Source of the DNA: an uncultured Lewinella sp.
Lineage (GTDB): Bacteria; Bacteroidota; Bacteroidia; Chitinophagales; Saprospiraceae
Direction of reading: 5' to 3'
Assembly: GCA_913060855.1 (NCBI GenBank)
Contig: CAJXUM010000001.1
Span: 1-36,468, forward strand
DNA: 36,468 nt
Shown here piece after piece: positions 9,736-31,475 of the stretch; the first letter of the stretch is position 1, and each line of letters opens with the position of its first letter. Below the pieces are notes generated by a model, which saw only the letters and a list, made by a program, of their open reading frames with translations, was not told the DNA's origin and made no database searches. The position numbers and the translations under genes are program-made.

Positions 9736-9750
9736 AGACTTCAGAAGTCT
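9736..9750. repeat. Dispersed palindromic repeat, half-element (copy D)
   Basis: A 15-base palindrome, AGACTTCAGAAGTCT, symmetric about its central A. Its flank (GGCTTAGACTTCAGAAGTC) is the reverse complement of the right flank of copy A (GACTTCAGAAGTCTAAGG type), so this is one half of the same repeat family without its partner arm. It lies about 40 bases before the start of the T9SS cargo gene, a promoter-proximal position unlike the other copies. Confidence 0.55.
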
Positions 9751-12613: not shown

Positions 12614-12635
12614 GCCGTTAGTTGCTTAGGTGTAG

Positions 12636-12679
12636 ACTTCAGAAGTTTCCTCGGGAGGGACTGGGGAAACTTCTGAAGT
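12636..12679. repeat. Dispersed palindromic repeat, copy B
   Basis: Perfect 15-bp inverted repeat, ACTTCAGAAGTTTCC (12636-12650) and GGAAACTTCTGAAGT (12665-12679), with a 14-base loop that is nearly identical to the loop of copy A over GGGACTGGGG. It begins 22 bases after the stop of the T9SS cargo gene. Its right arm is also the left arm of the larger nested element at 12669-13000, so the two structures exclude one another. Confidence 0.8.
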
Positions 12680-13000
12680 GGGTTGGTCGATAGATTAATT
12701 ATCTACTAAAATCAACTGCACCAAAAATGGATGCACTAAAGAGCAGCGATTTGGGCTTTCCAAATCGCTGCTCTTTTAAATATATGTTGGCTACAAGCTC
12801 ATGCTTGTATGCCGGTTTTGGCTGCGAGCCAGCTCGCTGTAAGTAATTGTAGTCTGTATATGCTGTATCTCGGCGAGCAGGCTCGCAGCCAAAGCCCGCG
12901 TACTAGTAAAACTAGTAGCGAACATCTGATATTATATATCCAAAATGGTGAAGTTGATAGGAAGAAACCCACCTAGTATCGACCAATCCACTTCGGAAGT
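12669..13000 (+). repeat. 332-bp nested inverted-repeat element, candidate structured RNA or MITE-like element
   Basis: The outer helix pairs 12669-12692 with 12977-13000: 24 positions, 22 Watson-Crick. The other two (T12674 with G12995, G12682 with T12987) are wobbles in plus-strand RNA and A-C mismatches in minus-strand RNA. A second helix pairs 12711-12723 with 12946-12958 (12 of 13). Inside lie four hairpins: 12738-12776 (17 bp perfect), 12792-12809 (7 bp), 12818-12892 (22 positions, one A-A mismatch and one U-G wobble) and 12901-12917 (7 bp). The whole is a closed multi-branch structure, and it fills the gap between two convergent genes. No ORF of note lies inside. The pairings are seen directly; whether it is an RNA, a mobile repeat or a terminator complex is open. 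Confidence 0.6.
12738..12779 (+). terminator. Strong intrinsic-terminator-like hairpin
   Basis: Perfect 17-bp stem (12738-12754 with 12760-12776) and a 5-base loop GCTTT. The 3' arm ends in CTCTTTT, and the 5' arm starts with AAAGAG, so a short U-tract is available in both directions. It lies about 125 bases downstream of the T9SS cargo gene. It is the most terminator-like of the hairpins in the 12614-13057 gap. Confidence 0.7.
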
Positions 13001-13057
13001 CTCCAGGGATTAGACCATTAAATAGCTACCCGTATTCATTGACGCGAAATCTTTTCA

Positions 13058-31039: not shown

Positions 31040-31475
31040 AGGATAAGGGTGTAGTATGAAGTAATGATCAGTGAATCTCTAAATTGGCGATAAGTTGCTA
31101 TTAGTCTTATTTGATCATTACCAAAGGGTTTCGAATGGCAATATTCTAGTAACCTTTTTTTTGTTCAAATTATTACTTCGAAGGTGTTTAAAACAAAATT
31201 GATTAAAGCAAAAAGTATTGACTACCCAAAAAGGGCTACGGCTCAGAAGCCGTTTCTCAGACTTCTGAAGTTTTCTTTGTCATGCCTAGCGAAACTTCTG
31301 AAGTCTGAGCTTACCCCGCCAAATGCTCCTAAAGAAGCCCTGTAAATAGCTTCTTAAAGGTATCAAAAAAAAAATTAAATCTTCATCCCTTTGTAACTAC
31401 TTCAGTAGCCTTCCACTTAATCATACAACTGCTCAGGGGGATAGAATATTACTCCTTGAAGCATAAACGCTTCAC
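31040..31475. other. 436-bp intergenic region with repeat copy C and terminator-like hairpins
   Basis: No gene is seen. From the Xaa-Pro aminopeptidase stop (minus strand) the order is: a small hairpin TGAAGC / GCTTCA (31457-31462 and 31469-31474) directly after the stop, a nine-A run at about 31367-31375, repeat copy C (31256-31309), and a hairpin ACGGCT / AGCCGT (31238-31243 and 31248-31253) that is followed on the minus strand by CCCTTTTTGGG. The promoter of the DUF5723 gene must lie in 31040-31200; no exact TAnnTTTG is visible. Confidence 0.5.
31256..31309. repeat. Dispersed palindromic repeat, copy C
   Basis: Arms 31256-31274 and 31291-31309 pair over 19 positions with one T-T mismatch at the centre of the core and one wobble (T31274 with G31291). 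The right half (GAAACTTCTGAAGTCT) matches copies A and B; the loop does not. It lies about 165 bases downstream of the aminopeptidase gene, on a stretch where both flanking genes are on the minus strand. Confidence 0.7.

Follow-up and report, generated by a model that had tools for sequence, protein, structure and literature searches.

Between two convergent genes of an uncultured Lewinella sp., which encode a Por_Secre_tail cargo protein and a DUF5916 protein, lies a stretch of DNA that folds into a closed, branched structure, and this raises the question of whether the fold belongs to a structured RNA or to a mobile element. The locus is part of a window (the whole stretch of DNA that was analysed) of 36,468 nucleotides, and an earlier note on this DNA had described two nested helices enclosing four hairpins. 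Minimum free energy (MFE) folding and an inverted-repeat search confirmed the helices and the four hairpins at the positions claimed. The plus strand of 12660-13010 has an MFE of -179 kcal/mol, whereas shuffled versions average -90.7 (z = -16.9; equalled by 0/100 shuffles), and the minus strand of the same interval is nearly as stable on folding (z = -14.9). Arms were returned by the inverted-repeat search at 12665-12692/12977-13004 (28 nt, 89%), 12738-12754/12760-12776 (17 nt, 100%) and 12804-12837/12873-12906. The claimed extent of the structure holds for the helices but not for the left limit, as pairing extends to 12636-12650. This segment is perfectly complementary to 12665-12679 and offers the outer helix another partner, so that the left hairpin and the outer helix have an arm in common. 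The internal hairpins are:

12738-12776, no strand: internal hairpin 1, a 17-bp perfect stem, from the fold and inverted repeats, with A-U to C-G compensatory changes in copies
12792-12809, no strand: internal hairpin 2, ACAAGCTCATGCTTGT, from the fold
12818-12892, no strand: internal hairpin 3, from the fold and inverted repeats
12901-12917, no strand: internal hairpin 4, ACTAGTAAAACTAGT, from the fold

A search of the genome to which the window belongs (8.3 Mb, 1640 contigs) recovered approximately 40 loci with full or partial copies, the long ones of which are 75-92% identical. The sequence AGTGGGTTGGTCGATA, with up to 2 mismatches, has 68 matches in this genome compared to 4 for a reversed control. 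The terminal inverted repeats (TIRs), together with an 11-bp target duplication, define the mobile unit as 12680-12989. As an alternative to an RNA, the earlier note had suggested a small mobile element with TIRs of ~24 bp; 13 bp of these are TIR, but the remaining 11 bp are duplicated target. The element, its ends and the site that it entered are:

12680-12989, no strand: mobile element proper, 310 bp, from dispersed copies, its bounds set by the TIRs and target duplication
12680-12692, plus strand: left TIR GGGTTGGTCGATA, 13 bp, from genome matches to AGTGGGTTGGTCGATA
12977-12989, minus strand: right TIR, reading TATCGACCAATCC on the plus strand, with 1 mismatch to the left TIR
12721-12730, plus strand: left subterminal box CCAAAAATGG, from end comparison, present too in elements with unrelated interiors
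12940-12948, minus strand: right subterminal box, reading CCAAAATGG on the plus strand, from end comparison
12669-12679, plus strand: left copy of the target duplication, ACTTCTGAAGT, 11 bp, 10/11 identical to the right copy
12990-13000, plus strand: right copy of the target duplication, ACTTCGGAAGT, from flank comparison
12634-12679 plus CT now at 13001-13002, plus strand: pre-existing 48-nt terminator-like hairpin, 20 nt past the cargo-gene stop codon, the right arm of which is the insertion target

No open reading frame (ORF) of at least 80 aa is present inside 12680-12989. Copies read with their flanks follow one plan, in which (A)RACTTCNGAAGT is followed by GGGTTGGTCGATA, ~30 nt, CCAAAAATGG, an interior rich in palindromes and then the mirror image. 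Comparison of both ends reveals 0-4 TIR mismatches among copies, and one end is missing in copies L012, L016, L019, L020 and L028-L030. Internal hairpins are used in a mosaic fashion in L030, L045 and L014, and the hairpin 2 sequence ACAAGCTCATGCTTGT has 58 exact matches in the genome and 0 in 12 relatives. The internal hairpins were also considered as independently dispersed repeats, but within 181 kb of own-genome loci, which were chosen for their copies, all adjoin other parts of the element. Several copies depart from the common plan. In L021:2071-2369 the left half repeats the right half in inverted orientation, as if template switching had produced it; in L019:2003-2367 the gene-side flank GTAATTAGCTGGCTCAGACTTCAGAAGT stands on either side of a copy truncated at its 3' end, and this duplication is far longer than 11 bp; and L137:1981-2715, a relative of 735 bp, shares the ends but encloses another interior, which contains no obvious gene and is partly common to L133 and L136.

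The target consensus, taken from 90 distinct ends, is a sharp palindrome, ARACTTCNGAAGT; over these ends it reads A-R-ACTTCNGAAGT, with ~80-98% agreement per fixed position. The duplication in the window is itself palindromic, and its 10/11 match therefore cannot alone separate a direct from an inverted repeat. The same is true of the palindromic flanks elsewhere in the genome, and the question was resolved by asymmetric sites in G002, a sister genome (Saprospiraceae DT_111, contigs JABSSL01). A complete element on G002:C159 carries ACATCTGATAT on both sides, which match at 11/11 as a direct repeat versus 8/11 as an inverted one. In G002, 14 and 13 contig ends break off within a longer element, with A-end GGATTGGTCGATATTTAGAGG and B-end GGGTTGGTCGAAATTAGGC, and are 100% identical up to ~110 bases, suggesting that this element was amplified recently; the interior of the element is missing from the MAG. 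Five asymmetric flanks of this amplified element each possess an exact 11/11 direct partner at the other end, in order ACTTCACAAGT, ACCTCAGAAGT, ACTTCGGATAT, ATATCCGAAGT and ACTTCCGATGT. The third and fourth sites are mutual reverse complements, and so the pairing of ACTTCGGATAT and ATATCCGAAGT leans on restored hairpins beyond the 11 bases. When the first pair (ACTTCACAAGT) is rejoined minus one 11-mer, the reading frame runs on unbroken for 335 codons and has a Reg_prop match, and three of the rejoined G002 sites give restored hairpins. The earlier note had looked to dispersed copies with target-site duplications as support; the copies are found in the genome, and the duplications in the window and at all five asymmetric sites of the related G002 element.

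In the window, removal of the element and one duplicate in silico yields a perfect 21-bp hairpin of -35.1 kcal/mol. This hairpin belongs to a pattern with 133 forward and 134 reverse matches genome-wide, compared to 0 for a control; the ~130 in this genome stand against a few per sister genome and 7 in one other genus. Where genes could be called, in a small sample and roughly, many of these hairpins lie 11-40 bp past a stop codon and frequently separate convergent genes. They are terminator-like in appearance and would presumably act as terminators; a strong T run is missing at many of the sites. The insertion L120/L129 lies within a gene and without a hairpin, so that the palindromic sequence is sufficient as a target. 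Elsewhere in the window, the ACTTCNGAAGT hairpin family is also represented at 671-714, 9736-9750 and 31259-31306, and the one at 9736 is a bare 15-bp palindrome, AGACTTCAGAAGTCT.

Convincing matches to the family are restricted to one genus among the 60 relatives and 348 Saprospiraceae genomes searched, and as far as this search extends the family is confined to that genus. Outside it, G028 has a single 23-nt match (E = 0.004), which was taken as chance. A scan of genome contigs for GAAGTGGGTTGGTCGATA found matches in two MAGs of the genus only, and the end sequence was unmatched in viral contigs. The elements of G002 have ends in common with the window family and an unrelated interior, and G001 has the same ends weakly. 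The G001 orthologue of the window pair retains the same convergent genes with 10 bp between their stop codons and no element. The element is also absent at five other orthologous sites (L013, L019, L025, L024 and L015; 2 or 3 relatives each), and the place of the element at L013 is occupied in the relatives by ordinary hairpins that have T runs. In principle, the element could also have been lost from the relatives. Two other kinds of sequence were observed. Head-to-tail arrays of G002 interiors with a ~320-bp period, broken by a TGTGTATAAAC-ended repeat, are present at L102 (G002:C175) and L074 (G002:C22), and a non-coding block, TATTATGTCGGCTGYCTTTACTATATG...TTTGTTTATTTTTGGTCAACGCAATG, is strongly conserved in 4/4 genomes (L164, L165, L166 and L024:2490-2620). 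The block lies upstream of the gene for a long secreted protein (in relatives ~1550 aa) and is possibly a promoter or regulatory site.

The earlier note had favoured a plus-strand RNA whose fold is kept by selection, and the very stable fold, the retention of stems across copies and the few double changes, such as those from A-U to C-G in hairpin 1, are consistent with this. On the plus strand of the window copy, the outer helix does have G-U pairs at its two imperfections. However, the minus strand folds nearly as well, and the strand asymmetry disappears when 20 copies are aligned and folded and events away from the Watson-Crick majority pair are counted: pair changes comprise 28 G-U and 24 A-C events (p = 0.34), and in the two outer helices of the earlier note 9 and 8 (p = 0.50). 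Because the two kinds of event are nearly equal, the G-U trace that the window copy alone shows on its plus strand does not characterise the family. The covariation sought in the helices did not emerge either, with A1 double changes at 5/30 pairs, mostly in single lineages, and a consensus-fold covariation term of +0.21, which is about zero. The double changes that keep the stem of hairpin 1 may equally well reflect correction of a quasi-palindrome at the DNA level, or selection on foldback DNA, as selection on RNA. An Rfam scan at gathering scores returned no match, and the element is missing from between orthologous gene pairs. A selected plus-strand RNA is therefore very improbable.

A repeat of the REP/BIME type, spread by a Y1 (RAYT) transposase and with the outer palindromes as REPs, would also account for many palindromic, extragenic copies 3' of genes, and the 48-nt hairpins are REP-like. 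However, 13-bp TIRs and a target duplication of 11 bp are not known as traits of single-strand Y1 transposition, and in place of GTAG/CGTC tags, which are absent, the ends of the element consist of GGGTTGGTCGATA after ACTTCNGAAGT, making such an origin extremely improbable. There is practically no likelihood that the stretch is an inert, never mobile spacer or terminator whose palindromes arose on the spot. The position between convergent genes and behind a terminator-like hairpin would suit such a spacer, but approximately 40 homologous copies elsewhere already refute it, and the empty orthologous sites, the exact duplications and the restored ORF speak against it.

Very probably the stretch is a MITE, a non-autonomous DNA transposon with no gene of its own that is served by a transposase in trans and inserts with an 11-bp stagger into a palindromic target; its family is limited to one genus as far as searched. 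The multiple copies and their common ends, the target consensus with its 11-bp duplication, the empty sites in orthologous regions, and the restored ORF and hairpins are all directly observed, and they bear out the mobile-element alternative of the earlier note. A trans-acting transposase would recognise the ends through GGGTTGGTCGATA and the subterminal CCATTTTTGG box and make a staggered 11-bp cut in the palindromic target ARACTTCNGAAGTYT, leaving ACTTCNGAAGT duplicated on both sides. As many targets are arms of terminator-like hairpins just past genes, insertions accumulate in gene tails, and in the window it was the right arm of such a hairpin that received the element. A transposase with these ends was not found, and the ten DDE_Tnp_1 loci of the four genomes are without convincing ends. 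The palindromic interior would have no role as RNA and would matter solely as a portion of the mobile DNA or for its foldback sequence. A more speculative proposal, which we consider rather unlikely, is that the lineage has specialised on the arms of terminator-like hairpins past genes, such that the TIRs extend the target palindrome and insertion re-forms a closed hairpin structure at the 3' end of the gene, by which the element may spare or replace the function of the hairpin it entered, with the largely exchangeable interior making the element a vehicle for any enclosed sequence.

The family is thus a new one, ordinary in kind for a MITE but with an unusually sharp and informative choice of target. 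It provides a clean example in which a sharp palindromic target, often in hairpins 3' of genes, is accompanied by directly readable 11-bp duplications, and if the transposase is found, whether sequence or hairpin governs target choice becomes directly testable. The case shows how counting copies and testing for strand symmetry decide between RNA and mobile DNA for a striking fold. The family may also help to explain the fragmented assemblies of these large Saprospiraceae genomes, as many contigs end inside elements.

Prokaryotic MITEs are typically shorter than 500 bp and intergenic, contain no gene, possess TIRs of 4-30 bp and a target duplication, and have a stable transcript fold (PMC10969869). 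The window element resembles them in its size of 310 bp, lack of a gene, 13-bp TIRs, duplication and ~40 dispersed copies, and likewise in its intergenic site, predicted foldback transcript and presumed mobilisation in trans (PMC10969869). It differs from them in the 11-bp duplication within a 15-bp palindromic target, the largely exchangeable interior and the entry into arms of terminator-like hairpins. The length of the duplication lies within the range of the IS4 family, in which direct repeats are 10-12 bp for the IS231 subgroup and 10-13 bp for the IS4 subgroup (PMC2266710). The conserved terminal bases of that family are CAT, CA, AATR, CT, CW or YT, depending on the subgroup, and the ends of IS231 and IS4 (CAT or -AATR) contrast with those of the window family, which begin with GGG or GGA (PMC2266710). 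These terminal bases do not fit an IS4-family derivative, and no such transposase was found beside the ends. Literature on Saprospiraceae repeats or on terminator-targeting insertion sequences yielded nothing close.

A dispersed palindrome likewise serves as a target in Coxiella, where IS1111 inserts into QMITE2 REP palindromes (PMC10969869). IS1111 is an IS110-type element, and elements of that type are not known to make an 11-bp duplication such as that of the window family. BrickBuilt from Porphyromonas gingivalis is likewise an intergenic, species-limited MITE of Bacteroidota with about 20 copies, and it holds a 23-nt minisatellite, with no design in common with the window family seen (PMC4596501). 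BOX, RUP and SPRITE from Streptococcus pneumoniae are similarly small, clustering repeats that insert within each other, and SPRITE is terminator-like (PMC10969869). These occupy a different host and no relationship to them is shown, whereas in the window genome one family constitutes the target site of the other.
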